Position numbers and translations under genes: made by a program. Below, in pieces: positions 1 through 35,579 of a DNA stretch of 64,000 nt. The notes beneath the pieces were generated by a model. It ran no database searches, was not told the origin of the DNA, and saw only the letters and a list, made by a program, of their open reading frames with translations. This stretch comes from Bacteroidia bacterium (lineage in GTDB: Bacteria; Bacteroidota; Bacteroidia; SpSt-205). The DNA lies in contig BPGV01000001.1 in assembly GCA_026003215.1 (NCBI GenBank), positions 523,570 through 587,569 of the forward strand. Direction: 5' to 3'. Numbering within the stretch: position 1 is the first letter of the stretch; every line of letters starts with the position of its first letter.

Positions 1-91
1 CTTAGCTGACCTCCTGCGTGATGAACTGCAAAACATGGGGGTACGCCTCTTAGACTTTCCCGATGAGACCTTGTGGGAAATGCACGAATAA
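1..91 (+). CDS. cysS: Cysteine--tRNA ligase, C-terminal fragment (cut by window start)
   Basis: Codons from base 2 to the TAA at 89-91 read LADLLRDELQNMGVRLLD followed by FPDETLWEMHE. This matches the conserved extreme C-terminus of cysteinyl-tRNA synthetase (ADxxRDxLxxxGIxLxDxxxGTxW), the cytoplasmic enzyme that charges tRNA-Cys. Only the last 29 residues are inside the window, so the catalytic HIGH and KMSKS motifs cannot be checked. The next gene starts 10 bases after the stop on the same strand and is probably cotranscribed. The assignment rests on this short tail only. Confidence 0.72.
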   Translation, partial: LADLLRDELQNMGVRLLDFPDETLWEMHE

Positions 92-101
92 CTAAGCTTT
101 C

Positions 102-1082: not shown

Positions 1083-1127
1083 CCCCTTTTTCCACAGTTT
1101 TTACCCCCCCAGAAAAAAGAAAAAGCC

Positions 1128-1135
1128 TACCTTTG
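1128..1135 (+). promoter_or_regulatory. Bacteroidota -7 element TAnnTTTG
   Basis: Exact TACCTTTG. It ends 3 bases before the ATG at 1139, so transcription should begin at or next to the start codon. This favours ATG 1139 over the in-frame TTG at 1133, which lies inside the box. Confidence 0.65.
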
Positions 1136-1138
1136 GGC

Positions 1139-1957
1139 ATGCAGAGAAGTTTCTGGCTACTCTCTCTGCTACTAAGCTGGGCTTTTGGTACCGACTCGCT
1201 CAAAGTAGCGAGCTCCATACGAATGCTGTATGCCTCCTTAGAAAGCCTTTCTGAGCAGCTGCCCAAAGTATGGTGGGATCGTCAGTGGGTAGGGGCTTGC
1301 AGACCTAAAGATATTCGCTCTATCATAGCTCCCGTACGCATAACCTTACAAAAACCTGAGGAAGGCTTCTACTTTGTGGTGCCTATCCAAGGCGCACTCA
1401 ATTCGGGGTTTGGGTTTCGTCGGGGCTGGCAGTTCCACTTTGGATTAGATATTGACCTTAAGGTAGGCGACACCGTCGTAGCAGCCATGGACGGCGAAGT
1501 GCGTTTAGCTGGCTATGACCCTGGGGGATACGGCTACTTTTGCGTGATAGCCCACCCCAACGGCGTAGAGACCGTCTATGGACACTTTTCTCGGCTATTA
1601 GTCACGCCTGAACAGCTTGTAAAAGCGGGGGACCCCATTGGCTTAGGCGGGAGTACCGGCCGGAGCACAGGCCCCCACCTACACTTCGAACTACGCTTCA
1701 TGGGCGAACCCATAGATGTGAGCGCTTTGATAGACTTCCCCTCCGGCGAGCTTATAGAATCTGAACTCTATATCACTCCCGAGACTTTTGCCCACCTAAG
1801 TACCCTCTCAAGCGCTATGTACCATGTGGTACGCCGGGGCGAGTCGCTTTATACTATTGCCCGGCGGTACGGTGTGACGGTACGCTACCTCTGCGCCCTG
1901 AATGGCCTTTCCACACGGAGCATCCTCCGACCGGGGCAGTACTTGCGCGTCCGATGA
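1139..1957 (+). CDS. M23 peptidoglycan endopeptidase with LysM domain
   Basis: A 272-residue exported protein. Residues 1-17 form a hydrophobic signal peptide. The LytM/M23 zinc peptidase core spans about 80-195: His100 and Asp104 (FHFGLDID), His149 (YGHF) and the HLH pair at 180-182 (GPHLHFEL). This is the full metal and catalytic set. A LysM peptidoglycan-binding domain follows at about 228-272 (YHVVRRGESLYTIARRYGV). The expected role is cleavage of peptide cross-links in the cell wall during growth or division. The start at 1139 is chosen because the promoter box overlaps the alternative upstream TTG. The stop overlaps the start of pth by 4 bases (ATGA), so the two are probably translationally coupled. 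Confidence 0.88.
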   Translation: MQRSFWLLSLLLSWAFGTDSLKVASSIRMLYASLESLSEQLPKVWWDRQWVGACRPKDIRSIIAPVRITLQKPEEGFYFVVPIQGALNSGFGFRRGWQFHFGLDIDLKVGDTVVAAMDGEVRLAGYDPGGYGYFCVIAHPNGVETVYGHFSRLLVTPEQLVKAGDPIGLGGSTGRSTGPHLHFELRFMGEPIDVSALIDFPSGELIESELYITPETFAHLSTLSSAMYHVVRRGESLYTIARRYGVTVRYLCALNGLSTRSILRPGQYLRVR

Positions 1958-2568
1958 AAAAACGGGCGCTCTTCGGGCTGGGTAACCCCGGAGAAACCTA
2001 CCGCCTCACACGACACAACGCCGGCGCCCGTGTCATAGAAGCACTGGCAGCTCACCTGAATGCCCCACTCTTCACCCCACAACGCTACACCCTTTATACC
2101 CAAGTCCAGTGGGCTGGTATCCAATGGCACCTTTTCCTCCCCACTACCTACATGAACCTCAGCGGCGACGCTGTGGCTTTCTGGAAAACCAAACTGGACC
2201 TCTCCTTAGAAGAAATCCTCATAGCAGTGGATGAACTCCAACTCCCCTTAGGGACCCTACGCCTCTCCCCTAAAGGCTCCGCCGGCGGACACAACGGCCT
2301 GGCCCACATCATAGAAAAGCTCGGCACCGAACACTTCCCGCGGCTGCGCATAGGTATAGGCAAAAACTTTCCCAAAGGCAAGCAAGTCGAGTATGTACTC
2401 TCCCCCTTTCCCCCCGAAGAAGAGCGTATATTCCAACATATTTTGCCCAAAGCTGTGGAGTGCCTCATCACCTGGGGGCGCCAAGGACTACCTGCTGCCA
2501 TGAATGCCTGTAATAAGCGTTCCCCTATCCCCAGCCCCTCTCCTGACCCGGACAAGTTTTCCTCTTAA
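1954..2568 (+). CDS. pth: Peptidyl-tRNA hydrolase
   Basis: A 204-residue cytoplasmic enzyme of the bacterial Pth family, which releases peptides from peptidyl-tRNA that drops off ribosomes. Family motifs are present: FGLGNPGETYRLTRHNAG at about 7-24 with catalytic His21, the YMNLSG motif, AVDELQLPLG with the supporting Asp, and GSAGGHNGL. The length is normal with a short Ser/Pro-rich tail. It overlaps the preceding M23 gene by the ATGA motif. The following lipoprotein gene begins 35 bases later behind its own promoter-like sequence. Confidence 0.93.
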   Translation: MKKRALFGLGNPGETYRLTRHNAGARVIEALAAHLNAPLFTPQRYTLYTQVQWAGIQWHLFLPTTYMNLSGDAVAFWKTKLDLSLEEILIAVDELQLPLGTLRLSPKGSAGGHNGLAHIIEKLGTEHFPRLRIGIGKNFPKGKQVEYVLSPFPPEEERIFQHILPKAVECLITWGRQGLPAAMNACNKRSPIPSPSPDPDKFSS

Positions 2569-2603
2569 GCCCATCCGAGGAACTTCCCTTGTATTTTGCG
2601 GCT

Positions 2604-3128
2604 ATGCGCTTCGCTGGGAAGCCCATAGGCGTGCTTTTCTTGACGATACTCGGGATAGGATGCACCCCTAAGTCGCTTCCTAAAACCCGAACGGAAAAAC
2701 CTTCTCCCGCAGCTAAAGTGGTCGAAGTAGCGCGTAGCTATATAGGGGTGCCCTATAAGCTTGGGGGGATGGACCGTAAGGGTATAGATTGTTCGGGCTT
2801 AGTCTGTCGGGTGTATCAAGAAGCTGTGAATCTCCCCTTGCCGCGCACGGCAGATGCCCAAGCCCAGCAAGGGCAGCCTATAAAAGGCAAGCTTCAACCG
2901 GGGGATTTAGTCTTCTTTCAGGAACCCAAAGCTAAGAAAATCACCCATGTGGGCATCGTCTCCCACACCGCAGGAGAAGAAGTGTATTTTATCCATGCTT
3001 CCACTTCAAAGGGTGTGCGCGAAGACCTTCTTAGCGACCCGCACTGGAAGAAGCGCTATGTAGGGGCACGGCGCCTCCTTCGCCCCGACGCAAAAGCTGC
3101 CCTACATACCGGTCAACAGGGAAAGTAA
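2604..3128 (+). CDS. NlpC/P60 family cell-wall peptidase lipoprotein
   Basis: A 174-residue lipoprotein (lipobox LGIGC, Cys20) with one NlpC/P60 domain. The catalytic Cys63 is in GIDCSGLVCRVY, His115 is in THVGIV, and His131 in FIHAS is the third polar residue. LQPGDLVFF is also typical. It probably cleaves D-gamma-glutamyl-diaminopimelate bonds in peptidoglycan stems. ATG 2604 is chosen over an in-frame TTG at 2589 because it gives a normal signal peptide and sits 5 bases after a promoter-like TATTTTG. The last 98 bases overlap the converging Nudix gene on the other strand. Confidence 0.87.
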   Translation: MRFAGKPIGVLFLTILGIGCTPKSLPKTRTEKPSPAAKVVEVARSYIGVPYKLGGMDRKGIDCSGLVCRVYQEAVNLPLPRTADAQAQQGQPIKGKLQPGDLVFFQEPKAKKITHVGIVSHTAGEEVYFIHASTSKGVREDLLSDPHWKKRYVGARRLLRPDAKAALHTGQQGK

Positions 3129-3471
3129 GCCGCATAAAAGCCGCCGGCAACCACAAGAGTCGCTGACGCGACAGCATCGGACGCACTTCGCCTTCTATCC
3201 ACACCCGATAATAAATGGCCAACAAACGCGCTTCCGCATGATAATACGACCGCTGAAAAAAATCCGTAGTGTAGAAATGTTCTACCCGACGAACCTCCAC
3301 CCGTAGCTCTTCCCAAAATTCCCTTTGCAGCGCTCCTATAAGCCCTTCGTGCGGTTCTACGCCTCCACCGGGAAACTTTTGGATCCAGCCGCCTCTAAAA
3401 TACTCTTCTACGACCAACCAACGTCCCCATTCATCCGCCACCAGCCCATACACCCGTACGATCCACCTCAC
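3031..3471 (-). CDS. Nudix hydrolase
   Basis: A 146-residue protein with a complete Nudix box, GGGVEPHEGLIGALQREFWE followed by EL, matching GX5EX7REUXEEXGU, so it should bind divalent metal and hydrolyse a nucleoside-diphosphate-linked substrate. The substrate cannot be read from the sequence. The start is GTG. It overlaps the stop of the upstream M1 aminopeptidase gene as GTGA (3468-3471), which suggests translational coupling. Its 3' end runs 98 bases antisense into the NlpC/P60 gene. The overlapping tail, after the conserved fold, is low in recognisable features. Confidence 0.82.
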   Translation of the reverse strand: MRWIVRVYGLVADEWGRWLVVEEYFRGGWIQKFPGGGVEPHEGLIGALQREFWEELRVEVRRVEHFYTTDFFQRSYYHAEARLLAIYYRVWIEGEVRPMLSRQRLLWLPAAFMRLTFPVDRYVGQLLRRGEGGAVPLHSASSSAGR

Positions 3472-5861
3472 GAGCTACGCTGGTAAAAAGTCGGCGGCTT
3501 GTATTCAAAAAGCGGGGCCAATATAGCTTTTTCGGCCGGGCTCCACGAGTGCTGATTGTAGTATTCTATCAGGGTCTGGCGAAACCGAGTCTGCCCAAGC
3601 CAATACTCTGTCACTTCCCGCGCTACAGCAGCCAAACGCATGTTGGTACTCAGGAGCGCCTCAACAAGGTGCGGCAAGAGCGAAGGCGGGAGCGCATTTA
3701 GCGCTTTCAAAGCCCGCAGTGCATTTTGTCGGGTACGAAACTCAAAGGCGGGACTGGCATAATCTACCAGCTTGTCTATAGCGCCCTTATCGCCATGCAA
3801 GGCCGCCACCTCTAAGTGCTTGATGCGGACATTGTGCCCCACCAGCCCTAAGTCGTTGGCAGTCATGCGCAAGTATTCCGGCACGCGCCGCGGGAAAGCT
3901 TCACTCAGCCGCTCCAAAGCCAACGCCTGCACCACGTACGAAGAGTCTCGTAAGAGGGTCTCCAGATCCGTGCGCAAGGTGGTGGAGAGAGGGTTATGGT
4001 TAGCTATGACAGCAAAACGCACCTGCGGGTGAGGATCCCTTAGCGCTTCTTTGAGGAAGGACTGCGCGGCTGGGTCATTCGCGAGCTGAGCCACAATCTC
4101 CGCTCGCATCGCCCAAAACTGCTCCCGGCGATAGGCGGCTTGAAGCGCCTCCCGTTTTTGCGCCGCCGGCACCCGCCTCAGCGCCAAGAGCGCCTCATAC
4201 CGCGCAAGTATATACGGAGCCTTTTCTAACTGAGCCAAAAGTTCCTCCGTACGTTTCTCAAAAGTCACCTGCTTAAGTATCCATCCCCCAGGGTCAAATA
4301 AGACAAACGCTATAGCCTTTTTCTGCGGGTTAGGCACTTCTACCACTTCCCGCTGGGCAGCTATCCAAGCGCGCACCGTATCATAGCTGCCATCGGTATA
4401 ATGCACCGAAAACACAATCGGCATCCGGAAAAGACCAATACTACTATCCTGTATTTGCTCTACAATAAACTGGGTGTAGGCTTTGCCGCCTTTTTCTATG
4501 GGTTGGTATTGCACGCGGTAATGGGGTTCGCCGCCGCGGTACAGCCACTGCTGGAAAAACCAATCCGGACTGAGCCCCGCAGCATCCTGAAAAGCCTGAT
4601 ATAAATCGTTTGTCTCTACCACGCCATACGGGTGGCTTTTGAGGTAGTGGGTGATGACCTTTTTAAAAACTTGATTCCCAAAGGTATAGCGCATCATGTC
4701 CAGCACAGCCGAACCCTTTTGATAGACTCGGGCATAGCCGGGGTTAGGATGGACGATGGGCAGGTTATCTTTTTGGGCGGCGCTGAGGGCCAGCGTATGT
4801 TCGGTACGGCGTCCCCACGCATACGCATCCTCCCCAAAAAGCTGCCCTACAATAAAGCGCGCGTAGTGCGTGGCAAAGCTCTCTTGCAGCCACAGGTGGG
4901 CAAAGCTGCGCGCCGTCACATAATCGCCAAACCACTGATGGGTAAGCTCATGCGCATTCACCTCTACATAACTTCTATCCAAATACGCCCGCTCATCCAC
5001 GTGAAAAAAGTCGCCAAAAACCGTTGCGGTGGTGTTTTCCATGGCCCCGTAGAGGTAGTCGGCCACGGGCACTTGGGCGTACTTCTCCCAGGGGAAGGGC
5101 ACGCCTAACTCCGCCTCTAACTTCTCTACCATTTCCACCGAATAGCGGTACGTAGGCTCTAAGCAGCACTCCTTCCGGTCGGGGTAATAATATAATAGGA
5201 GGGGCACGCCGCTTTGGGTTTGGCGCCGTTCTATCCCGTACTCGCCGATAGCTATCATGAGCAGGTACAAGCTGTGGGGCTTCTGCATGCGGTAATGCCA
5301 GGTAAGGCTACCGTCGGGGTTGCGCAGCGTATCTATGAAGGTGCCGTTAGAAAGCACCTGATACCGGCTATCAAAGGTGATGAGGGTCTCTGTGATGAGT
5401 TTGTCGTTAGGGTCATCATAGCAGGGGATCCAATGGCGGTGGTCGGTAGCTTGGCCTTGCGTCCAGATTTGTTTGCGGGCGCGGCCGGTCTTATCCTTCC
5501 AGCCGATAAAGTAGATCCCCTTGCGCGGGGTAGCTATGTACCGAATGGTGATAGAGTCGCGCTGACCCATGCGCAGGGGGGAGGGAAACCGCACGATGAG
5601 TTTGTCTCCTTCTGCACGGAAGGGGACTGGGGTGTCCCTATGCCGCACTTCCTCCACCTGGATCTGGACCGCATCTAATACCAAGCTGTCTATGCCGGGG
5701 CGCAAAGGCTCAAACACATGCGTGACCAGGCCATATACGGTTCCTCTCTCCGGAGCGAAGCGCACCTGCAGACGCAAGTGTTGCATATCTACGAGCCGTT
5801 CTCGGGGCGTGAAACCTTGAGCGCTTACTACACCCAAGAGGGCCACCAGAAGCAGACGCAT
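3468..5861 (-). CDS. Exported M1-family metallo-aminopeptidase
   Basis: A 797-residue protein with a signal peptide (about 1-15). The M1 hallmarks are GAMEN at 272-276 (exopeptidase N-terminus recognition), the zinc motif HELTHQW at 304-310 (His304, Glu305, His308) and the third ligand Glu327 in LQESFATHYA. A beta-rich N-terminal domain precedes the peptidase, and the C-terminal half looks like helical HEAT-type repeats. It probably trims peptides in the periplasm or at the cell surface. A -7 box ends 4 bases before the ATG, so the mRNA is probably leaderless. The Nudix gene is coupled downstream. Confidence 0.92.
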   Translation of the reverse strand: MRLLLVALLGVVSAQGFTPRERLVDMQHLRLQVRFAPERGTVYGLVTHVFEPLRPGIDSLVLDAVQIQVEEVRHRDTPVPFRAEGDKLIVRFPSPLRMGQRDSITIRYIATPRKGIYFIGWKDKTGRARKQIWTQGQATDHRHWIPCYDDPNDKLITETLITFDSRYQVLSNGTFIDTLRNPDGSLTWHYRMQKPHSLYLLMIAIGEYGIERRQTQSGVPLLLYYYPDRKECCLEPTYRYSVEMVEKLEAELGVPFPWEKYAQVPVADYLYGAMENTTATVFGDFFHVDERAYLDRSYVEVNAHELTHQWFGDYVTARSFAHLWLQESFATHYARFIVGQLFGEDAYAWGRRTEHTLALSAAQKDNLPIVHPNPGYARVYQKGSAVLDMMRYTFGNQVFKKVITHYLKSHPYGVVETNDLYQAFQDAAGLSPDWFFQQWLYRGGEPHYRVQYQPIEKGGKAYTQFIVEQIQDSSIGLFRMPIVFSVHYTDGSYDTVRAWIAAQREVVEVPNPQKKAIAFVLFDPGGWILKQVTFEKRTEELLAQLEKAPYILARYEALLALRRVPAAQKREALQAAYRREQFWAMRAEIVAQLANDPAAQSFLKEALRDPHPQVRFAVIANHNPLSTTLRTDLETLLRDSSYVVQALALERLSEAFPRRVPEYLRMTANDLGLVGHNVRIKHLEVAALHGDKGAIDKLVDYASPAFEFRTRQNALRALKALNALPPSLLPHLVEALLSTNMRLAAVAREVTEYWLGQTRFRQTLIEYYNQHSWSPAEKAILAPLFEYKPPTFYQRSS

Positions 5862-5865
5862 GGGG

Positions 5866-5873
5866 CAAAGGTA
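5866..5873 (-). promoter_or_regulatory. Bacteroidota -7 element TAnnTTTG
   Basis: Exact TACCTTTG on the minus strand, ending 4 bases before the aminopeptidase ATG at 5861. It lies between that gene and the end of the upstream DUF4476 gene. Confidence 0.65.
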
Positions 5874-5902
5874 GTTTCCCCCAAAAAAAAGCCCTTACGC
5901 CC

Positions 5903-7192
5903 CTACCGCCCGGAAAGCTGCTGGATATACTGAGCCAGCTCCTGCTGGCTGGCCGAGGACATAAACGCCTGATTGACCACGAAGTAGTTTTGCGGGTCGC
6001 AGCAACGGGTATAGGCTTCCTTGGCTATTTGGAGCCGTAAAGGTTCTCCGTAAAAGGTCCGGCACACTTCCCGCACCTGCTCCGCAGAAAGGCAGTTGGT
6101 GGCGATAATCTGCCGAGCTATCTCTAAACGCGTAGGGTCGCTGTACGCATTCTTAAGGGTAGTCAGGGCTTGGCTGAAAGACCCCGCCGGCATACAAGGG
6201 GTACAAGGCCGAGACACGGCCGTACTCGGCTGAGCCCCCGTACTCGGCCATGCGGTACCTGCCTGGCAACGCTGCCGCGCCGGCCGCGTCTGAATGTATT
6301 TTACCAACTCGTCCTTACTACTGGAAAAATCAAACGCCTCATTCACGACGAAGTAGTTAGACAAATCATGCGTGTAATCATACGCAAACTTCGCAAACTC
6401 TAACTTAGAGCTTTCAAAATCAAAAAGCTTCATTATCTCGCGCACGTCCTGAGCTAGGAGGCAGTTTTGGCGAGCGATTTGTTTAGCCATCTCTAAGCGA
6501 GTCTGGTCAAAAGTCTCATTCCGTAAGGTAGCCAGGGCCTGCTGGAAGCTCTCTCGGCTCATGGGCACCGTACAGTTACACGGACCCGAGTAGGTACTGG
6601 TGGAAGGCGGCATCCCTGGAACTGGTGGCACAGGGGTACCTACCGGCGGCTGCGGTGCAGGCGGCGCCGCCACCTGCGTACCCGAACCCGTATTCACTTG
6701 GATGGTAGGGTTGAATACAATAGTGGTATTTTGGTTTTGATTTTGGGTATTTTGCTGTACAGCTCCGCCGCCAGTATTAGCTGGGGGGGTAGGCTGCGCA
6801 GGCGGTGTCGGCTGCGGAGAGGCCGGAGGCGTCGCCGGTTGCGCAGCCGTAGCTGGAGCCGGCTCCTCGCTACGAAGCACCCGATTGTACTGGACAACCT
6901 TGTATCGCCCTTTCTGCTTGCGGATAGCGTAGTATTCTACATATCCGCTCTCTACATAGAAGGTTTTCTTGAGCTGGATGACCCGCCCTTCGGAGGGGTG
7001 GATATAGACAGTACCTTTTTGGGGGCCTTCGTGCAGGTCATGGGCTTCGGCTCGGGTGACAGGCGTCTCCGCTATCCACTCCCCATTCACATACAACCTA
7101 AACGGCTCGCCTGTCTCCGAGACAACAATCAAATCCCCGGTCCCTTGTGCCAATAGAAGGCCTACGGCTACGCCCCAGTACAGCGTCTTCAT
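5903..7192 (-). CDS. Secreted protein with two DUF4476 domains
   Basis: A 429-residue exported protein: signal peptide at about 1-16, an N-terminal beta-rich region (20-105), a Pro/Ala/Gln/Asn-rich linker (about 110-205), then two related helical DUF4476 units at about 213-310 and 335-427. The repeats share SFxQAL, a TRLE(M/I)A segment, CL-AQ(D/E)VRE and a YFVVN(E/Q)AF motif, so they arose by duplication. DUF4476 is common in Bacteroidota and has no established function. It could be a structural or protein-binding surface module. The gene has its own -7 box and diverges from the outer membrane protein gene at 7264. Confidence 0.8.
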   Translation of the reverse strand: MKTLYWGVAVGLLLAQGTGDLIVVSETGEPFRLYVNGEWIAETPVTRAEAHDLHEGPQKGTVYIHPSEGRVIQLKKTFYVESGYVEYYAIRKQKGRYKVVQYNRVLRSEEPAPATAAQPATPPASPQPTPPAQPTPPANTGGGAVQQNTQNQNQNTTIVFNPTIQVNTGSGTQVAAPPAPQPPVGTPVPPVPGMPPSTSTYSGPCNCTVPMSRESFQQALATLRNETFDQTRLEMAKQIARQNCLLAQDVREIMKLFDFESSKLEFAKFAYDYTHDLSNYFVVNEAFDFSSSKDELVKYIQTRPARQRCQAGTAWPSTGAQPSTAVSRPCTPCMPAGSFSQALTTLKNAYSDPTRLEIARQIIATNCLSAEQVREVCRTFYGEPLRLQIAKEAYTRCCDPQNYFVVNQAFMSSASQQELAQYIQQLSGR

Positions 7193-7196
7193 AAGG

Positions 7197-7204
7197 CAAA
7201 AATA
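7197..7204 (-). promoter_or_regulatory. Bacteroidota -7 element TAnnTTTG
   Basis: Exact TATTTTTG on the minus strand, 4 bases before the ATG of the DUF4476 gene. It shares a 71-base divergent intergenic region with the plus-strand box at 7249. Confidence 0.6.
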
Positions 7205-7248
7205 GGCACAAAAACTATGCCAACCTCCAAGGGTTACCCGAGATTATG

Positions 7249-7256
7249 TAAGTTTG
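7249..7256 (+). promoter_or_regulatory. Bacteroidota -7 element TAnnTTTG
   Basis: Exact TAAGTTTG, 7 bases before the ATG at 7264 of the outer membrane barrel gene. Confidence 0.6.
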
Positions 7257-7263
7257 CGGCGAT

Positions 7264-8094
7264 ATGAAGACGCTTCGTCTCGTACTACTGGCCCTCCTAC
7301 TTACGGGATGGGCCTGGGCACAAGAAGGCACTTTTAAGATTGGTGCCGCTGTCCTACCGCAGAACACGTGGCTCCTCAATCAGGACGACTCGGATGCAGG
7401 CCCTGAGCTGGACTATGAGGTCACGTGGGGTTTTGCTGGGGGCCTCACCCTGGGGTACAACTTTACGGACTACCTCGGGGTAGGCTTAGATGTGCTCTAC
7501 TCCAGCCAAGGCCAAAAGTACAAGGGTACCGTTTCGGGGGTGAACTGGACCGCTCAAACCCGCCTAAACTACCTCAAACTCCCCCTCCTCCTGCGCTTCA
7601 ACTCTGACCCAAACTCGCCTGTGCAGTTTAGCTTCTTTGTCGGGCCACAGCTCAACCTCCTCCTGAGCTATACAGACAAGTTCGAGGCATCTAGCTCGGG
7701 TGTTACTTCCACGGTGGAAACCTCGGGGACAACCGTTACCTCTACTTTTGTAACGGGGGGCGTCACCATGACGGATAAAGAAAACCTCACCGCTTCTGCC
7801 TATAAGAAAACTTCCTTGGGAGCGGCCGTAGGGCTGGGCGTAGGGTTCAAGCTCACCGATGAGCTGCTCCTCACCCTGCACTTCCGGGGCGATTATGCCT
7901 TTGGGGATGCCGAAAACAAAGACGCCAAAGTAGATCATACCGCTCATGGAGGCGGCCAAGACCCCTACTGGGAAGTCAAACCCAAGTATGATGTCAGCAC
8001 CGGCGGAGCCCCTGCCGGCTATAAGCGTCCTACCACGTCAGCTATCACTGGCGGGCTAATGTTGGGGATTACCTATAACCTACCTGTACGCTAA
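7264..8094 (+). CDS. Outer membrane beta-barrel protein (PorT-like/OMP_b-brl type)
   Basis: A 276-residue protein with a signal peptide ending near AWAQ (about residue 20), then alternating amphipathic strands rich in Gly, Tyr and Thr typical of small Bacteroidota barrels (GFAGGLTLGYNFTDYLGVGL, LRFNSDPNSPVQFSFFVGP). The C-terminal strand LGITYNLPVR fits a barrel end. A Thr/Ser-rich stretch in the middle is probably an exposed loop. The specific function is unknown. It is a single-gene unit: own promoter, strong terminator at 8121. Confidence 0.75.
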   Translation: MKTLRLVLLALLLTGWAWAQEGTFKIGAAVLPQNTWLLNQDDSDAGPELDYEVTWGFAGGLTLGYNFTDYLGVGLDVLYSSQGQKYKGTVSGVNWTAQTRLNYLKLPLLLRFNSDPNSPVQFSFFVGPQLNLLLSYTDKFEASSSGVTSTVETSGTTVTSTFVTGGVTMTDKENLTASAYKKTSLGAAVGLGVGFKLTDELLLTLHFRGDYAFGDAENKDAKVDHTAHGGGQDPYWEVKPKYDVSTGGAPAGYKRPTTSAITGGLMLGITYNLPVR

Positions 8095-8120
8095 GAAAAC
8101 TATCCACTTAGATAAATAAA

Positions 8121-8142
8121 GGGGGCTGCGGCCCCCTTTTTT
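8121..8142 (+). terminator. Intrinsic terminator between converging genes
   Basis: A perfect 6-bp GC stem (8121-8126 with 8131-8136, loop TGCG) followed by a six-T run. The A-rich sequence just upstream (8113-8120) gives a weaker T-rich tract for the opposite strand, so it may also serve ychF, which ends at 8147. Confidence 0.85.
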
Positions 8143-8146
8143 ATTT

Positions 8147-9247
8147 TCACACTGCGAAGCGGAAGTATATCACATCCCCATCTTGCACGACATAGTCGCG
8201 CCCTTCCAAGCGGAGCTTACCCGCGGCCTTGGCGCCCTCCTCGCCGCCGTAGCGGATATAGTCTTCAAAAGCGATAACCTCCGCTCGGATGAAGCCCCGC
8301 TCCATGTCGGAATGTATCTCTCCAGCGGCTTGCGGGGCTAAAGTCCCTTGACGCACCGTCCAGGCACGTATTTCTTTGGGGCCCGCTGTGAAGAAAGTGA
8401 TAAGCCCGAGGAGCTTATAGGCTTCTCGGATGAGCTGCGGCAAGGCCGGCTCCTCTAAGCCATACAGCACCAAAAACTCCGCTCGTTCCTCGGGTGGCAG
8501 GGTGGCTATCTGCGCTTCTACGGCAGCGCAAAGTACCAGGGCGGAAGCCCCCTCCGTTTGCGCCATTTCCTGTACGGCGGCACTCCACGCATTCCCCCGG
8601 GGCAAACTCCGCTCATCTACATTAGCCACATAGAGCACCGGCTTGAGCGTGAGGAAGTGGTACTCTCGCAGGATAGCCTGTTCCTCCTCGGGAAGTGCTA
8701 AGGTTCGCAAGCTCTGCCCTTGATTGAGGTGAGTCTCGGCTTTCTGGAGCACTTCTAAGCGCTTTTGGGCCTCGGGATTGGCAGCTAAGCGCGCTTCTCG
8801 TTCTATCCGCGGGAGGGTTTTTTGTAAGGTCTCTAAGTCTTTGAGCTGGAGCTCCAGCTCTACTATCTCTTTATCGCGCAAGGGGTCCGGCTGACCTTCT
8901 ACATGCACAATCTCGGGGTCTTCAAAGCACCGCAGCACATGTAGGATGGCGTGCACCTCACGGATATGCGCCAAGAACTGGTTACCTAAGCCTTGGCCCG
9001 CATGAGCCCCCCGCACCAGGCCCGCTATATCTACGACCGTGAGGGTAGTAGGGGTAATCTTCTCGGTAGGGCACACCTGAGCTAAGGCTTGGAGACGCGG
9101 ATCCGGCACGGGCACAATTGCCCGATTAGGTTCAATCGTACAGAAAGGATAGTTAGCTGCGGCGGCCAGGGCTGTGCCACTAAGCGCATTGAAGAGGGTA
9201 GATTTGCCGACGTTGGGGAGGCCGACAATCCCACACGCTAAGGCCAT
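8147..9247 (-). CDS. ychF: Obg-family ribosome-binding ATPase YchF
   Basis: A 366-residue cytoplasmic P-loop protein of the YchF/OLA1 type. The P-loop GLPNVGKST is at about 8-16, and DIAGLVRGAHAGQGLGN gives the G3 region. The base-recognition motif is ANVDE rather than NKxD, the feature linked with ATP over GTP preference in this family. A coiled-coil insertion (about 130-170) and a C-terminal TGS domain (about 280-364) are present. It binds ribosomes and is associated with stress responses. A near-match -7 box (AAACTTTG at 9253-9260, one mismatch) sits 5 bases before the ATG. Confidence 0.95.
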   Translation of the reverse strand: MALACGIVGLPNVGKSTLFNALSGTALAAAANYPFCTIEPNRAIVPVPDPRLQALAQVCPTEKITPTTLTVVDIAGLVRGAHAGQGLGNQFLAHIREVHAILHVLRCFEDPEIVHVEGQPDPLRDKEIVELELQLKDLETLQKTLPRIEREARLAANPEAQKRLEVLQKAETHLNQGQSLRTLALPEEEQAILREYHFLTLKPVLYVANVDERSLPRGNAWSAAVQEMAQTEGASALVLCAAVEAQIATLPPEERAEFLVLYGLEEPALPQLIREAYKLLGLITFFTAGPKEIRAWTVRQGTLAPQAAGEIHSDMERGFIRAEVIAFEDYIRYGGEEGAKAAGKLRLEGRDYVVQDGDVIYFRFAV

Positions 9248-9261
9248 GGCCGCAAAGTTTG

Positions 9262-9269
9262 TACTTTTG
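9262..9269 (+). promoter_or_regulatory. Bacteroidota -7 element for tRNA-Ser
   Basis: Exact TACTTTTG ending 4 bases before the first acceptor-stem base of tRNA-Ser. The same spacing is seen in front of protein start codons in this window, so the primary transcript may begin at or very near tRNA position 1. Confidence 0.6.
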
Positions 9270-9273
9270 GGGC

Positions 9274-9363
9274 GGAGAGGTGCCGGAGTGGTCGAACGGG
9301 CCTGACTCGAAATCAGGTAACCCGCTACACGCGGGTTCGGGGGTTCGAATCCCCCCCTCTCCG
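9274..9363 (+). tRNA. tRNA-Ser (anticodon CGA)
   Basis: A 90-base class II tRNA. Acceptor strands GGAGAGG (9274-9280) and CCTCTCC (9356-9362) pair, with discriminator G9363. The anticodon stem-loop has CGA in loop CTCGAAA, decoding UCG as serine. The long variable arm (AACCCGC/GCGGGTT) is as expected for serine, and the T arm contains GGTTCGAAT. No CCA is encoded. It lies in the gap between ychF and the phosphatase gene, with the converging stop codon only 1 base beyond its 3' end. Confidence 0.95.
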
Positions 9364-9364
9364 C

Positions 9365-11452
9365 TCAGATTAAGGCTTTGAGGCGCGCACGCCCATACGC
9401 TAATAGCGCTTCCGCGGGTACTATCAGTAAGGTCACATCATCATTAGGAGGCGCTTTTCCCTGCCAGTTTTTTATGGTCTCAACCACTTTTTTTAACTGT
9501 TTCTGAGGGGAAGAAGCCACAAAAGCTGGATCATCCCCCAAAGCGCGCAGGGCTTTTATGCCCAGTTTCTTACCCTCAGGATTGAGTACATCGGTAAGCC
9601 CATCCGTGAAAAAGTAAAAGATACGGTCCTCCGTAAGCGGTTCTTCATACGCCGGAAACTCATACTCTGGCGTGGTGAAGCTATCTATGCCGCGGCGCCC
9701 GCCTGGCAGCTCCCGAAATCCTTGCCGCCGGTCATACACCCATACCGGACGACCTGCCAGGCCAAAAAGTACTTTCTGCTGGGGAAAATCCACAATAGCT
9801 ACGGCCAAATCGGCTCCCTCCCGCATTTTGAGATGGCCTTCGGTGACTTCTCCTCGTAGTACTACGTCCAAGGCTTGCCGCAGGCGCTGGAGGAGGGCTT
9901 GAGGGGTTTGATTAGGATTTTGTAAGAAAAGGTTTTGCGCTGTAGCCGCAAAAATTCCTGCGAGGATAGCTCCCGATACCCCATGCCCTGTACAATCCCC
10001 CACCACCAAAAGCAATCGCTTAGAAAAGGGATCGGCTGCCATGGTGTAAAAGTCTCCGCCCACTTCCTGCATGGGTTCATAATAGACAGCGATACCGGGG
10101 AAAAAACGTTCCAGGTTAGGGAGGATAGCGCGCTGGAGACGGCGCGCCGCTGAATGCGACTCTTGGAGCGTAGAGAGTGCCTCCGCCAAGGTTTCAGAGA
10201 TACGCACGAGCTCTTCATTTTGCCGCTCTAAGGCCCGGGCTTGCTCTTCTATGCGCTGGGCTTGGGCTGCGATAGTCTCGCGGAAGGTACGCTCCTCTCG
10301 GGCACGCCGGCGGGCTTGCGCCAAAGCATAGCCTAATCCGCCCAAGAAAAGTAAGCCGAAAATCCCTATCAGCCCATATAAGAGCCGTTCCCGGCGACGC
10401 TGCTCTTGGAGGGCTTTTAGCTCAGCCTCACGCGCCTCTAAGCCAGAAAGTACGCTTAGCTGGGCTATACGCTCGTTTTGTTGGGTAATGCTCTGGCGCT
10501 CGGCTTCTTCTACTAAACGCTCGTACAGGTTCAGCGCTTCTTTGAGCTTCCCTTGGGCTATGGCCAAACTGGCTTGGGTGCGCAGCCACTCCCTGCGCAG
10601 GGAATACGGCAAACGCGCATACACCCCGCGCGCTTGGGCAAGGAGACGCTGGGCTTCGTTGAGCTTGCGCTGGGCCAAGTAAAGCTGGGAGAGACCTAAA
10701 AGTGCTTGGCCTATGGCTACACTATCGCCGCGCGCCTCGGCTAAGGCTTGCTGGTAGAGTTTTTCGGCTTCGCCCCAGCGGCCCCTTTCGGCATAGAGCG
10801 AAGCTAAGTTAGCCACCACCGCCGGCCGCACCCGCTCCGCCGGCTCTAAGAGGAGATGAAAAGCGGCCGGCTTTCCCAGTACTTCCAATGCCTTTTGCGC
10901 ATACTGAATAGCCCTTTCTATATCACTGGCCGCCACGAGAAAGGAAAGCTGGTTATAAGCCAAAGCCTGTAAAATAGGATGTTGGACGGCTTCGGCTTTT
11001 TCTACGGCCTGGGCCGCATAGCCTTGGGCCCGCAGCGGCTCACTTCCCGCATAGTGACTACCCAGCGCCAAATAACAGCGCCCCACCAAAAAAGGGTACG
11101 CCTGAGCTTCTGTCGCTATCTTCTCATAAAGGAAAATAGCTGAGTCTGGCCGTCCTAAGGCATAATGGGCCTGCGCTAACAAGGCCTGTCCGTGATAAAA
11201 GAGCGATTCAGGGGGGCTTATGCGCCGAAGCGCTTCATGGACCAAACGGGGCACGCCCTCGGTAAAGCCGCCCCTTAGCCAAGCATGCGCTAAAAGGAGG
11301 TAGGCTTCTGCTTGGCCACGGGGGGTGCTTTCAGCCAGGAGCCGCTCGTACGCACACTTCCCTAAGCATAAAGCATCTATCCCACATGCCTCACAAGCCT
11401 TTTGTGCCCACACCCACCCCAACAAGAGAAAGCCCAGAGCTTTCCTGCTCAT
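9365..11452 (-). CDS. Membrane-spanning TPR / SpoIIE-type PP2C protein phosphatase
   Basis: A 695-residue predicted signalling protein. It has a signal peptide (about 1-17), a long helical region with TPR-like repeats (about 30-320) that should be periplasmic, one membrane helix (about 357-378), a coiled coil (380-440) and a C-terminal SpoIIE/PP2C serine phosphatase domain (about 437-690). Catalytic metal motifs are VGGDFY, GDCTGHGVSGA, FYFFTDGLTD and the final NDDVTLL. It probably senses an envelope state and dephosphorylates a cytoplasmic partner such as an anti-sigma-factor antagonist. Its ATG overlaps the ancestral TGA stop of the TonB receptor gene upstream (ATGA, 11449-11452), so the two were a coupled pair. 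Confidence 0.86.
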   Translation of the reverse strand: MSRKALGFLLLGWVWAQKACEACGIDALCLGKCAYERLLAESTPRGQAEAYLLLAHAWLRGGFTEGVPRLVHEALRRISPPESLFYHGQALLAQAHYALGRPDSAIFLYEKIATEAQAYPFLVGRCYLALGSHYAGSEPLRAQGYAAQAVEKAEAVQHPILQALAYNQLSFLVAASDIERAIQYAQKALEVLGKPAAFHLLLEPAERVRPAVVANLASLYAERGRWGEAEKLYQQALAEARGDSVAIGQALLGLSQLYLAQRKLNEAQRLLAQARGVYARLPYSLRREWLRTQASLAIAQGKLKEALNLYERLVEEAERQSITQQNERIAQLSVLSGLEAREAELKALQEQRRRERLLYGLIGIFGLLFLGGLGYALAQARRRAREERTFRETIAAQAQRIEEQARALERQNEELVRISETLAEALSTLQESHSAARRLQRAILPNLERFFPGIAVYYEPMQEVGGDFYTMAADPFSKRLLLVVGDCTGHGVSGAILAGIFAATAQNLFLQNPNQTPQALLQRLRQALDVVLRGEVTEGHLKMREGADLAVAIVDFPQQKVLFGLAGRPVWVYDRRQGFRELPGGRRGIDSFTTPEYEFPAYEEPLTEDRIFYFFTDGLTDVLNPEGKKLGIKALRALGDDPAFVASSPQKQLKKVVETIKNWQGKAPPNDDVTLLIVPAEALLAYGRARLKALI

Positions 11453-30520: not shown

Positions 30521-30554
30521 TTTGGATTTAATCCAGATAAACACTTTACCTTTG
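30521..30554 (+). promoter_or_regulatory. Promoter of the heme-uptake operon (-33 TTTG and -7 TAnnTTTG)
   Basis: TTTG at 30521-30524 and TACCTTTG at 30547-30554, separated by 22 bases, match the Bacteroidota -33/-7 promoter. The -7 box ends 7 bases before ATG 30562. A second box, TAACTTTG, lies at 30486-30493 without a gene directly after it. Confidence 0.65.
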
Positions 30555-30561
30555 CGGCGGT

Positions 30562-31812
30562 ATGAAGCGCATCGGCGTTTTCTCGGCAGTAATCCTCTTT
30601 GCTGCCTTAAGTGGGAGCCTTTGGGCTCAGGTAACCGTCATCCGAGACAGCATCAGCATGGGTGCGGGCTATGCTAAGCAGGTGTATTACAGCTTCCAGA
30701 ATGGTCAGATAGACACGGCCTTAGCGGCGGGATGGCACCTGGCCTTTGAGATTCCTATTCGGGGGGCCGCTATCCGGGCCAATCACGCTCGGGGCGTGGT
30801 GGTTTTCCAGACTACAAAGGATACCAACGGCTGGACCACGCTCACGTTAGCGGATACCGTCACTCGGCTCTATAACGACAACTGCCGCTGGGAAATCGGG
30901 GCCCTCAACCAAACCGCCGCCCCGGGCAATCCTTTTGATGTCGGATGGGGCCTTTACGACCTTAACACCCATATCGTCACCGGCGACTCCTTGTACATCT
31001 TAGGCCTGCCGGGCGGGATCTACAAGAAGCTCTGGGTCCAAAAGCTTCAAGGCACCGTCTATACCGTGCGTGTAGCTAACTTAGACGGCTCAGAAGACAC
31101 CGTGTATGCGGTGGATAAGACCATAGCCACTGGGCGGAACTTCGTCTATCTGAACCTCCTTACGCGGCAGGTCCTGAATGCTGAGCCGCCTACCAGTGAC
31201 TGGGATATTGTGTTCACCCCCTACTTAGCCCTTCTGCCGCCCAGTGGGACCCCTTACCCTGTCACGGGCGTGCTACAAAATGTGGGGGTAAAGGCTGCAC
31301 GCATCGTGCTTTCCAGCACCGCTAATCCCGATACACTGACGCCCAGCGCGTACAGCTTGGACTCTTGCATTTCCACCATCGGCTACGACTGGAAGCGCTA
31401 CGACATGAATACCAATAGCTGGATTTTAGCCGATACGGTGTATTATCTCGTGCAGGATAAAGCGGGCAATCTCTGGCGGCTGCGCTTTGTGGGTTTTGGA
31501 GGAAGCAGCACTGGTAAGGTAGTGTTTGAAAAAGCCCGCCTCCAGCAAGCCACCGCCCTGGCGAAAACCTCCCTCGCTTCTGTTCAGACCTTCCCTAACC
31601 CGGCCCGAGAAGGGTTTTATGTGACCCTCTCTACCAGTGAAACGGTCCATGCAACCCTATATACCGTCACTGGCCAAAAAGTGTGGGAAAGCTTCTTCTC
31701 TGGCCAAGAGGTAGCGTGGATAGCTCGGCCGGCCGGCCTTCCCGCAGGAACATATCGCCTCCTCCTGCAGACGGTCTCCGGCACGTGGAGTGCCTCTCTT
31801 CTGTTTGAGTAA
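30562..31812 (+). CDS. HmuY-like heme-binding protein with T9SS sorting domain
   Basis: A 416-residue secreted protein. It has a signal peptide (about 1-22), two HmuY-like repeats of the pattern WDIVFTPY and IGYDWKRYDMNTNSWI, and a type A T9SS sorting domain at about 335-416 (VQTFPNPAREGFYVTL, LPAGTYRLLLQ). HmuY proteins bind heme and hand it to a TonB receptor. Here the next gene, 6 bases on, is such a receptor. Known HmuY proteins are usually lipoproteins, so T9SS export of this one is unusual. Whether the heme-ligating His pair is conserved cannot be settled by eye; binding of heme is inferred from fold and context. Confidence 0.72.
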   Translation: MKRIGVFSAVILFAALSGSLWAQVTVIRDSISMGAGYAKQVYYSFQNGQIDTALAAGWHLAFEIPIRGAAIRANHARGVVVFQTTKDTNGWTTLTLADTVTRLYNDNCRWEIGALNQTAAPGNPFDVGWGLYDLNTHIVTGDSLYILGLPGGIYKKLWVQKLQGTVYTVRVANLDGSEDTVYAVDKTIATGRNFVYLNLLTRQVLNAEPPTSDWDIVFTPYLALLPPSGTPYPVTGVLQNVGVKAARIVLSSTANPDTLTPSAYSLDSCISTIGYDWKRYDMNTNSWILADTVYYLVQDKAGNLWRLRFVGFGGSSTGKVVFEKARLQQATALAKTSLASVQTFPNPAREGFYVTLSTSETVHATLYTVTGQKVWESFFSGQEVAWIARPAGLPAGTYRLLLQTVSGTWSASLLFE

Positions 31813-31818
31813 GGGTTT

Positions 31819-33975
31819 ATGTGGCGAGGGGGATGGATAGCCTTAGGGAGCCTTTTTCTCTGGGGGCAGACTCTGCGCCTCATAGATGAAGAAGGGCACC
31901 CTATCTCTGGAGCGGCGGCAACCCTTACCTCAACTACGCAGGGGGTTCGGCTGCGGCTGGTCAGCGATAGCCTGGGTGGGGTTCAGGCCCCACCCGGGGC
32001 TTATCGCATAGAGGTCTCTGCCGAAGGCTACCTCCCCCTCAAACAAGAAGTCTCTTTACCTACTACGGTAGTCCTAATCCGCCCCTCTTATCAGCTCTCC
32101 GAAAAGGTAATCACCGGGCAATATGCCCCGGTGACAGAGCTGCGCAGTCTTTATCCAGTACGCATTCTGACGGCGGAGCGTCTGCAAGCTCAGGGGGCCC
32201 TTTACCTCCCCCAGGCTTTGATGACCGAACTCAATACCCGGCTCACTCAAGACCCCAATCTCGGCACCTTCGCCACCCTGCAAGGCCTTGGCGGCGAACA
32301 TGTGAAAGTACTCATAGATGGAGTGCCCGTCTTAGGCCGGGTAAATGGCAGCATAGACCTGTATCAGCTTCCCTTAGCCGAGGTAGAACGCGTAGAGATT
32401 GTAGAGGGGCCCATGAGCGTCCTCTATGGTACGGATGCCCTGGGCGGCGTGATAAATCTCATCACGCGCAGCAGCCGATGCCAGTGGGAGACCCGAGGCC
32501 GCTTTCAATACGAAGGTGTAGGTATTTATGATGCGGGGTTCTCGGTCGCCGGCGGCCCCGCTAAACATCGGCTCCTTATCTCCGGAGGGCGTTACTATTT
32601 TGATGGGTGGGACCCTAACCCTACTCGGCTGCGAGCCCAGCTCTGGCGCCCCCGAGAACAGTACAACGCCCTCCTCTCCTACCAATACACCCCTTCTGAA
32701 CGCCTCCGCTTACGCTTTCAGGTCCCTTACGGCTATGAAACTTTCTTCAATCTCACAGAGCCCACGATTACGCCTTACCGCATTTATGCCTTGGATGAGT
32801 ACTATTATACCCGTCGCTTTCTCCCTACTGCAGAAGGAACTTACAAAATCTCTTCTCACCTCCGCTGGGACCAACAGATAGCTTTCCTTAGGTATAGCCG
32901 CGTTCGAAATGTGGTGTATAAAGACTTGGTTACGCTCAAAGAAACGCTGGTTCCCCTCCCCGGCCAGCAGGACTCCACGCAGGAATACCAAGCCTGGAGC
33001 CGAGGCGGCCTCTCCTACACCGCTGAGAAACTTTCCTACCAAGTGGGCTACGAAGTACAACACAACGTAGTGACAGGCGGACGGATCCGAAATGGGCGCG
33101 CGGAGATGGGGGATTATGCGGTGTGGGGCACAGCGGAATGGGCTATCTCGCCGAGCTGGGCTCTCCGGCCGGGGTTCCGCTGGGCTTACAATACGCGCTT
33201 TGCTGCGCCGCCTCTCCCGGCGCTCCACCTCCGCTGGAGTCCCTCGCCCGCCTTCACCTGGCGCATAGGGTACAGCCGCGGCTTTCGCGCCCCCTCCCTG
33301 CGGGAACAGTTTCTCTACCTCGTCTTTACTAACCACAACATCCAAGGGAACCCCAACCTCCGCCCCGAAAAAAGCCACCACCTCCACACCAATCTTACTT
33401 GGACTTACCTCCAAAAAAACACCCTCCTACGGCTGCGCCTATCGGCTTTTTATAACGATGTGCGGGACATCATCCAGCTCGTTATTGTGGATCCCCTAAC
33501 GCTTTTCACGACCTATTATAACCTTCAACGGGTGCAGACCTTAGGCCTCCAACCGCGAGCAGAGCTGCGCTGGAAAGATTTATACCTACACACGGGGGCT
33601 ACCTTTACCCAATATCAGGGTGCGCAGTGGGGATGGGAAGCCCTCTTTCAAGTTTCTTATAGCTGGCACGGAGTCCAACTGAATGGATTTTTCAAGTATC
33701 AAGGGCGGACTCCTATTTTCTTGGCTCAGGAAGACGGAAGCGTCTCCTGGCGATGGATAGGCGGTTTCCCGTGGGCCGATGTGTCGGTAAGCCGAGCCTT
33801 ATGGCGTAAGCACCTGCAAGTAACAGCCGGCCTACGCAATGTCTTTGACATCACCAATATCCAGGCCAATCTGACGGGCGGAGTCCATAACGGGGGCGGT
33901 TCGGCAGCGCCTGTAGGTATGGGCCGGTATCCTTTCTTCCGGATAGAATATCACTTCCAAAAAGGGCAGCTATGA
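31819..33975 (+). CDS. TonB-dependent receptor, probable heme/hemoprotein receptor (HmuR-like)
   Basis: A 718-residue outer membrane receptor. It has a signal peptide, a short CarboxypepD_reg-like domain (about 17-95), a plug (VLIDGVPVLGRVNG, EGPMSVLYGTDALGGVINLI) and a barrel ending in a typical strand (FFRIEYHF). The barrel contains FRAPSLREQFLYLVF, an NHN triad and GNPNLRPEKS, i.e. a FRAP, His, NPNL arrangement as described for HmuR-type heme receptors. General TonB receptors can also show FRAP/NPNL. The flanking HmuY-like genes on both sides support heme. It overlaps the next gene by ATGA. Confidence 0.82.
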   Translation: MWRGGWIALGSLFLWGQTLRLIDEEGHPISGAAATLTSTTQGVRLRLVSDSLGGVQAPPGAYRIEVSAEGYLPLKQEVSLPTTVVLIRPSYQLSEKVITGQYAPVTELRSLYPVRILTAERLQAQGALYLPQALMTELNTRLTQDPNLGTFATLQGLGGEHVKVLIDGVPVLGRVNGSIDLYQLPLAEVERVEIVEGPMSVLYGTDALGGVINLITRSSRCQWETRGRFQYEGVGIYDAGFSVAGGPAKHRLLISGGRYYFDGWDPNPTRLRAQLWRPREQYNALLSYQYTPSERLRLRFQVPYGYETFFNLTEPTITPYRIYALDEYYYTRRFLPTAEGTYKISSHLRWDQQIAFLRYSRVRNVVYKDLVTLKETLVPLPGQQDSTQEYQAWSRGGLSYTAEKLSYQVGYEVQHNVVTGGRIRNGRAEMGDYAVWGTAEWAISPSWALRPGFRWAYNTRFAAPPLPALHLRWSPSPAFTWRIGYSRGFRAPSLREQFLYLVFTNHNIQGNPNLRPEKSHHLHTNLTWTYLQKNTLLRLRLSAFYNDVRDIIQLVIVDPLTLFTTYYNLQRVQTLGLQPRAELRWKDLYLHTGATFTQYQGAQWGWEALFQVSYSWHGVQLNGFFKYQGRTPIFLAQEDGSVSWRWIGGFPWADVSVSRALWRKHLQVTAGLRNVFDITNIQANLTGGVHNGGGSAAPVGMGRYPFFRIEYHFQKGQL

Positions 33976-34943
33976 AAAAATGGCTTTTTGTGGTAGGGGT
34001 AAGCGTTTTGCTTTTAGGGGAAGGGTGTCGCAAGCCCGAAAAGCCTTGGCAGCTCCCCCCGCCGCCCGCCGGCCAACTGCTGGAAGCCAATACCGGCCCT
34101 GAATACGATACCGTAGTTTTCCTTCGCTTAGAAACGGGCCAGACTCATAAAGCCTTGCGCAATAGCTGGGATTTGCGGTTTGAGCCGCTCTCCTCAGGTG
34201 CCTATCAAGTCTGGCTAAACGCGGCCATGTATGCCTTCAGCGTGCAGGTCACCCCTACCGAGTGGGATACCCTCTCTACGCTCTCTCCGAACTGGCGCTG
34301 GCGCTGCGATATTCCGGATACGGCAGCCCTTCCCCCGCTTCGCCCGGGGGATACCCTGTGTTTCGTAGTAGATAGAGACCGGGGCGAGGTGTTTTACCGC
34401 ACCCCCACCCAGCGATACTACAAAGTGCGTATCCGATGGCTTCCCTCGGGACTCTCCATAGAAGCTGCCCCTCTGGGCGGCAATACCCCCCTCCAGTGGA
34501 GCCTTACGCCCCAACTTACTCCTATTTACCTCTCTCTGGAGAGCCCCTCGCCCGTGCAGGTAGCCCCCCCTTGGTCCCCTGACCTCATTGTGACCCGCTA
34601 TATCCACCCCTTCTATGACCAGCCAGAAGAGTATCGCTGGTACCCCGTCTTAGGCGTTCTGTCAGGGAAAGGCGTGGAAGTCGCCACCGTTTCCACCCAG
34701 CTCTCTTCCTACGAAAGCTTCTCCTACGACCAAGTAGCCCAGCTGACTTTCTCTTCTCGCCAAGAGGCCATAGGCTACGATTGGAAAACCTACGACTTCA
34801 ACACCGGCACCTATAGGATAGACTTCTCCCGCTTCTTTGTGGTCAAGACGGGACCCACCACCTATTATAAGCTGCGCTTTATTGACTTCTACGACAGCCA
34901 AGGCCGCAAAGGCGCCGTCAAAATAGAATACCTCCCTCTCTAA
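33972..34943 (+). CDS. HmuY-like heme-binding lipoprotein
   Basis: A 323-residue lipoprotein (lipobox LGEGC, Cys19). It shares a family pattern with the first gene of the operon, including IGYDWKTYDFNTGTYRI and YYKLRFIDFYDSQG, so two paralogues flank one receptor. It probably binds heme at the cell surface and passes it to the receptor. The start overlaps the receptor stop as ATGA. No terminator is visible after it; tpx begins with its own promoter 21 bases downstream. Confidence 0.75.
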   Translation: MKKWLFVVGVSVLLLGEGCRKPEKPWQLPPPPAGQLLEANTGPEYDTVVFLRLETGQTHKALRNSWDLRFEPLSSGAYQVWLNAAMYAFSVQVTPTEWDTLSTLSPNWRWRCDIPDTAALPPLRPGDTLCFVVDRDRGEVFYRTPTQRYYKVRIRWLPSGLSIEAAPLGGNTPLQWSLTPQLTPIYLSLESPSPVQVAPPWSPDLIVTRYIHPFYDQPEEYRWYPVLGVLSGKGVEVATVSTQLSSYESFSYDQVAQLTFSSRQEAIGYDWKTYDFNTGTYRIDFSRFFVVKTGPTTYYKLRFIDFYDSQGRKGAVKIEYLPL

Positions 34944-34964: not shown

Positions 34965-34972
34965 TAACTTTG
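34965..34972 (+). promoter_or_regulatory. Bacteroidota -7 element TAnnTTTG
   Basis: Exact TAACTTTG, 4 bases before ATG 34977 of tpx. Confidence 0.65.
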
Positions 34973-35489: not shown

Positions 35490-35579
35490 AGCGGCGCTTT
35501 GCGCCGCTTGGGGCTGGGCGGCGGCCTTGAGGCCGCCGCCCAGCCCGGGGGCGCCGCCGCCGCAGGCGGCGGCGCCCCC
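35489..35579. repeat. Three tandem perfect GC-rich hairpins
   Basis: Hairpin 1: 35489-35497 with 35501-35509 (9 bp, loop TTT). Hairpin 2: 35511-35526 with 35531-35546 (16 bp, loop TTGA). Hairpin 3: 35547-35561 with 35565-35579 (15 bp, loop GCA). All stems are perfect, and they follow each other with 0-1 base between. No T run follows, so they are not simple rho-independent terminators on the plus strand. They begin at the tpx stop codon. The region also keeps an open frame into the methyltransferase, which I regard as an artefact of GC richness. Confidence 0.85.

Follow-up and report, generated by a model that had tools for sequence, protein, structure and literature searches.

HmuY-family proteins and their receptors are known from several Bacteroidota. 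In the hmuYRSTUV loci of Porphyromonas and Bacteroides, which are heme auxotrophs, an HmuY-family lipoprotein is encoded beside a TonB-dependent heme receptor, as far as the sources describe them (PMC12583661, PMC12106395). In Flavobacterium columnare, C6N29_01035 joins an HmuY domain to a Por_Secre_tail and is stated to be secreted by the type IX secretion system (T9SS); its deletion caused no growth or virulence defect, and the account of this gene describes no trio with a lipoprotein partner and a receptor (PMC9618737). In F. psychrophilum, the HfpR-HfpY pair, which is induced in low iron, joins a TonB receptor to a heme-binding, divergent member of the HmuY family. HfpY acts together with HfpR, but in this pair the HmuY protein is single, a DoxX gene lies between the two genes, and the description of the pair includes no T9SS partner (PMC9331221). 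The Riemerella anatipestifer RhuH-RhuR-RhuA locus, which is Fur-controlled, has two heme binders and one TonB-dependent receptor; secreted RhuH, unlike RhuA, is able to remove heme from hemoglobin (PMC11967795), and rhuA is annotated as HmuY (PMC5429918). Going by these sources, T9SS-secreted HmuY, HmuY-receptor pairs and another two-hemophore locus are already known (PMC9618737, PMC9331221, PMC12583661, PMC11967795).

We analyzed a window of 64,000 nucleotides (positions 523570-587569) from a Bacteroidia genome that consists of one contig of 2.27 Mb and is 99% complete. An original prediction, made from the letters and open reading frames of this window, had placed two HmuY-like proteins around one receptor, and the three open reading frames lie at exactly the coordinates it gave:

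30562-31812, plus strand: HmuY-like T9SS protein (gene 1), 416 aa, with signal peptide, tandem double HmuY body and C-terminal type A sorting domain
30631-31551, plus strand: double HmuY body of the T9SS protein, residues 24-330, delimited by VIA-align fold matches and a half-to-half profile match
31579-31809, plus strand: T9SS type A sorting domain of gene 1, residues 340-416
31819-33975, plus strand: TonB-dependent receptor (gene 2), 718 aa, with FRAP, His506 and NPNL in this order
33972-34943, plus strand: HmuY-like lipoprotein (gene 3), 323 aa, with tandem double HmuY body
34026-34028, plus strand: codon of the lipidation cysteine of gene 3, Cys19, invariant in lipoprotein forms

The genes are tightly packed. 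Since 6 bp separate genes 1 and 2, and the end of gene 2 shares 4 bp with the start of gene 3, the trio is probably a single transcript. Unlike hmuYRSTUV, with its one single-unit HmuY, this locus encodes two double-unit HmuY proteins, one of them a predicted T9SS cargo, and none of hmuS, hmuT, hmuU or hmuV is present in the gene row of the window. It also differs from the Riemerella locus, where RhuH has a fold other than HmuY and is vesicle-secreted according to the account of that protein (PMC11967795); in the present trio the partners are HmuY paralogues of each other, with the T9SS domain on the one predicted to be secreted. A search that covered the open-access PMC literature, with subscription journals outside its scope, returned no description of a paired double-HmuY trio.

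The computational results show how the three genes are ordered, their families and folds, the sorting domain, the internal duplication, the recurrence in other genomes and the heme-synthesis genes missing from the host. We consider it likely that a T9SS hemophore, its anchored paralogue and a receptor together form the front end of heme import in a probable heme auxotroph.

A pair of double HmuY proteins

Both proteins exceeded the Pfam cut-off of 27 bits for HmuY (PF14064), the T9SS protein with 30.1 bits and the lipoprotein with 45.4, while a six-frame search of the genome with the same profile reported the lipoprotein and not the T9SS protein. Three relatives of the T9SS form gave mixed results, as L008 passed (49.4), L006 failed (18.7) and L004 was not listed. 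The IGYDWK pattern that had been noted as common to the pair is present at residues 273-278 of the T9SS protein and 267-272 of the lipoprotein.

Structure prediction, proposed with the original claim as a way to check it, gave AlphaFold models that fold as HmuY for both proteins (gene 1, pLDDT 86.2 and pTM 0.70; gene 3, pLDDT 89.7 and pTM 0.83). In comparisons with VIA-align, the gene 3 model matched eight HmuY-family PDB entries with Z scores of 11.4-15.3, the next unrelated chain scoring 3.9, and the gene 1 model matched the same eight entries with Z scores of 11.3-13.6. Foldseek gave poor global scores to HmuY entries for both models (TM < 0.5), as expected for a chain about twice the length of its targets. 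With E <= 1 as the limit, a profile built from twelve lipoprotein-type relatives also picked out six HmuY-family members of solved structure, the best with E 5.2e-7. No RhuH entry appeared among the structure matches listed for either model, although such lists cannot exclude a likeness to RhuH. A chance domain match was ruled out by the HmuY folds together with the recurrence of the trio.

The halves of the double proteins match each other (hhalign probability 98.2 over 101 columns), with IGYDWK of half 2 aligning to the DVGWGLY region of half 1. Judged by sequence, both proteins are tandem duplications of an HmuY unit. Classical HmuY is a single unit of about 160-190 residues and the double bodies here span about 290, so that these proteins are a tandem variant that lies inside the PF14064 family and outside classical single-unit HmuY. 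In the gene 3 model, VIA-align stretches one solved HmuY across the whole of residues 33-323, which suggests that one classical unit corresponds to the early part of half 1 and the late part of half 2 together.

The sorting domain predicted for the first HmuY protein was borne out mainly by its fold. With gene 1 alone as query, TIGR04183 scored 21.7 bits against a cut-off of 23 and the Pfam sorting-domain profile scored 17.7 against 27, while in a whole-genome search TIGR04183 gave the gene 1 tail 23.1 bits, just over the cut-off. The model of residues 340-416 matched the NucA sorting domain (8glk) with a Z score of 11.2 and an rmsd of 1.8 A, as well as 8qb1 (Z 11.0) and the domains of PorU, PorZ and RgpB. 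The genome encodes SprA, the T9SS component that was searched for (2231 bits), and a search at E <= 0.01 gave 57 type A tails. Gene 1 is thus predicted to encode a T9SS type A cargo that would reside on the cell surface or in the medium.

For the second HmuY protein, the lipobox of the original prediction holds in its cysteine, which is present in all 59 lipoprotein-type sequences; the flanking motif is degenerate in gene 3 (GEG-C). We infer that the lipoprotein is exposed on the surface. The T9SS protein might be kept on the cell through its sorting domain, in one complex with the lipoprotein and the receptor, a possibility that we rate at about one in three. PorU often replaces type A sorting domains with anionic LPS, which would suit such a complex, as would lipoprotein relatives with N termini that resemble an export signal (for example, C-QKDDE in L004). 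Gene 3 itself argues against it, as its N terminus, C-RKPEK, misses the minimal K-(D/E)2 signal. A motif for lipoprotein surface export is defined in PMC5080379, as far as that source describes it.

Receptor and probable heme need of the host

The receptor consists of a plug, a barrel and a carboxypeptidase-like N-terminal extension. The FRAP, His and NPNL elements that had been read from it are all present, with H506, between FRAP and NPNL, invariant in 11/11 aligned receptors. FRAP and NPxL boxes with such a histidine are tied to heme and hemoglobin receptors in the work on HfpR (PMC9331221). Two NCBIfam profiles scored about equally, a B12 profile with 101.7 (cut-off 599.7) and the hemin profile TIGR01785 with 99.7 (cut-off 316.85). 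The protein is probably a TonB-dependent receptor that acts like HmuR.

Relatives of the trio supply further context. Four Fluviicola-type loci have the order T9SS-HmuY, binding protein, FecCD permease, ATPase, HemS/ChuX, receptor and lipoprotein-HmuY. In the one of these that was profiled (L006), HemS scored 249.6 bits and the best match of the ATPase was a heme ABC ATPase, while the Fluviicola permease scored best to BtuC. That permease, with the B12 profile as the receptor's best NCBIfam score, is what could be said for uptake of a different TonB substrate by this cassette, for example cobalamin or a siderophore. We regard such a role as very improbable: HemS and the heme-type ATPase stand in the same Fluviicola row, and the HmuY folds, the FRAP-His-NPNL series and the failure to find three heme-synthesis genes in the host all speak against it.

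The heme-synthesis genes were sought by family searches of the genome, run alongside 14 control genomes. We did not find ALAD (hemB; 11/14 controls positive), porphobilinogen deaminase (hemC; 11/14) or ferrochelatase (8/14). The genome retains two heme-copper oxidases (COX1) and a HemS gene 63 kb upstream of the window. Since hemB, hemC and ferrochelatase are missing and the two oxidases and HemS are kept, the host is probably a heme auxotroph for which import is obligatory. ALAD is also missing from all 11 genomes of the genus, and auxotrophy is probable genus-wide.

Among 60 relatives, 27 matched the double HmuY. ALAD was missing from 20 of these 27 and from 6 of the 33 others (Fisher p 1.9e-5, a value that relatedness inflates); with the host's own family left out, the counts were 9/16 versus 5/32 (p 0.006, likewise inflated by relatedness). 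Because the remaining 7 of the 27 keep ALAD, the double-HmuY system is not confined to auxotrophs.

Two arrangements seen along the way concern heme genes more generally. At L014 (positions 1-7360), a T9SS-HmuY gene and a receptor gene lie beside a presumed heme-synthesis cluster, recognized by eye with hemA tested by profile, which is the opposite of the auxotroph situation. In L102, a gene for an MFS-type transporter, also recognized by eye (8053-9195, minus strand), is divergent from the host's HemS gene (9080-10333, plus strand) and overlaps its start; the transporter is possibly a carrier of heme or porphyrin.

Recurrence of the trio, candidate ligands and the proposed path of heme

The original prediction proposed looking for the HmuY-T9SS combination in other genomes. 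It recurs across the phylum and, for F. columnare, was already in print, going by the account of that gene (PMC9618737). A scan of a public genome collection gave 14 loci, nine of which (L002-L009 and L011) contain a receptor and both HmuY forms. In a phylum-wide draw of 395 genomes, 40 matched the lipoprotein profile and, on our reading of the matches, 17 had a full-length T9SS form. Within the genus, 10/11 genomes matched the double HmuY, the eleventh being only 81% complete.

We determined gene order in 40 genomes chosen for carrying such proteins, using stretches of at most 18 kb, or the window for the source genome. The full trio lay in one stretch in 31 of the 40. Most (25) had the order T9SS protein, receptor, lipoprotein; one had receptor, lipoprotein, T9SS protein; and in five the T9SS gene was divergent. 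The T9SS form occurred without a full trio in the stretch in 8/39 genomes, some of which had a contig end or a lipoprotein gene elsewhere, and in G405 the trio was represented solely by a fragment of lipoprotein type where a contig ends. In five Flavobacterium-type loci (L068, L069, L070, L076 and L078), a gene of roughly 300 aa is oriented divergently to the receptor gene; its place and size are those of Riemerella rhuH.

A tree of 107 sequences, made from the HmuY bodies only, separated 48 T9SS forms cleanly from 59 lipoprotein forms with support of 1.0. At its widest, our interpretation would be that the relay is ancient and phylum-wide: the HmuY unit was duplicated in tandem, and the two-lobed product split once into a His-liganded T9SS form and an anchored form, which were kept with one receptor as the main heme supply of aerobic Bacteroidota after the loss of heme synthesis. 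We hold this version tentatively, at slightly less than an even chance.

The histidine in question is encoded as follows:

30970-30972, plus strand: codon of His137 of gene 1, at Trp129+8, present in 45/48 T9SS-type sequences

HmuY proteins typically bind heme iron through two ligands, each His or Met, which some members lack. In solved HmuY proteins, a conserved tryptophan precedes the second of these ligands by 5 residues in P. gingivalis (His166) and by 8 in B. vulgatus (Met172); indices were matched to residue numbers using Met145 and Met172, which PMC11967795 places 27 residues apart. His137 has the B. vulgatus spacing. Its candidacy as a ligand relies on this Trp+8 spacing and not on a full alignment, because matches between the half-1 profile and structures are weak: the profile gave a weak match to 8b6a and otherwise unrelated cullins alone, and a second single-unit HmuY likewise gave only weak matches. 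At the first classical ligand position the T9SS protein has neither His nor Met, leaving one of the two classical positions filled. In the lipoprotein forms, a methionine occupies column 88 in 41/59 sequences (Ala in the gene 3 protein, which has Met86 nearby) and His212 is present in 24/59, and no ligand residues could be assigned from conservation across the 59 sequences. The original prediction would have been refuted by structures unlike HmuY or by a lack of any conserved heme-binding residues, and neither outcome was obtained: both models fold as HmuY, and the T9SS form has a nearly invariant His at a known HmuY ligand position, although for the lipoprotein no ligand was assigned. Both HmuY-like proteins would bind heme.

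This difference between the two forms might mean that they work in parallel, each taking a different ligand or source (for example, hemoprotein-bound heme versus free heme or iron-free porphyrin) and delivering it to the receptor on its own. Besides the clean split of the families and the presence of conserved His137 in only one of them, it accords with reports that HmuY homologues vary in ligand and that some bind porphyrin without coordinating iron, as far as the source covers them (PMC12106395). We nevertheless consider parallel use unlikely, as a single receptor, a single candidate operator and the frequent co-occurrence of the two forms suit a shared path equally well or better.

In the shared path that we prefer, gene 1 would encode a two-lobed HmuY-type hemophore that crosses the outer membrane through the T9SS and catches heme on the cell surface or in the surrounding medium. 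The lipid-anchored, two-lobed paralogue encoded by gene 3 would hold heme at the receptor and hand it over, the TonB-driven gene 2 receptor would carry it across the outer membrane, and HemS would receive it in the cytoplasm for use in heme proteins, the two heme-copper oxidases among them. The steps up to heme capture are proposed from family and context. The order of transfer, from T9SS protein to lipoprotein to receptor, is drawn by analogy with Riemerella, where secreted RhuH, and not RhuA, extracts heme from hemoglobin.

Studies of classical HmuY have dealt with host-associated anaerobes and their single-unit lipoproteins, whereas a pair of double proteins occurs in this probable auxotroph with heme-copper oxidases. 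The two double HmuY proteins would reach the outside by different routes, and the same pair recurs throughout the phylum. This raises the questions of whether a secreted HmuY gives its heme to an anchored HmuY, which in turn supplies the receptor, and whether a two-lobed protein carries one heme or two. It would also tie T9SS export to nutrient sharing, because neighbors could use a released hemophore.

Control region and the adjacent tpx gene

Two candidate control elements precede gene 1:

30521-30541, plus strand: candidate operator, TTTGGA-N5-TCCA(R)A plus AAA, a genus-conserved inverted repeat
30547-30554, plus strand: promoter-like TACCTTTG, which fits TAnnTTTG and is conserved in position among genus loci

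The inverted repeat itself (30521-30537) is separated from the start codon of gene 1 by 24 bp and overlaps the probable promoter. It is the sole strong site in a scan of the window, where 0.03 sites are expected by chance at <=3 mismatches, the other listed match being the opposite strand. The repeat lies directly upstream of the T9SS-HmuY gene in all nine genus loci with upstream DNA and was not seen near the host's HemS gene. Identity with a known Fur box was not established, and a literature search gave no useful Riemerella Fur box.

TACCTTTG fits TAnnTTTG, which we take to be the Bacteroidota -7 promoter element. It is 22 nt from the upstream TTTG, and TTTG-N17-21-TAnnTTTG has no match in the window. 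TAnnTTTG sites number 60 in the window versus 28.5 in shuffled sequence, in agreement with a Bacteroidota promoter element. A sigma-70 promoter scan was uninformative (2 found, 2.7 expected).

The heme-uptake locus of the original prediction, with two HmuY-family proteins of which one has a T9SS domain and one is lipid-anchored, stands; its link to the peroxidase gene tpx is not supported. While tpx does follow directly, 34 bp downstream of the trio, it has its own TAACTTTG element at 34965-34972 and adjoins the trio in 4/10 genus genomes; on both counts we reject it as a component. The interval that separates tpx from the lipoprotein gene gave no hairpin beyond those of shuffled sequence. Downstream of tpx (35511-35579 of the window), two perfect GC-rich hairpins with arms of 17 nt and 15 nt lie back to back, and each occurs once in the window.
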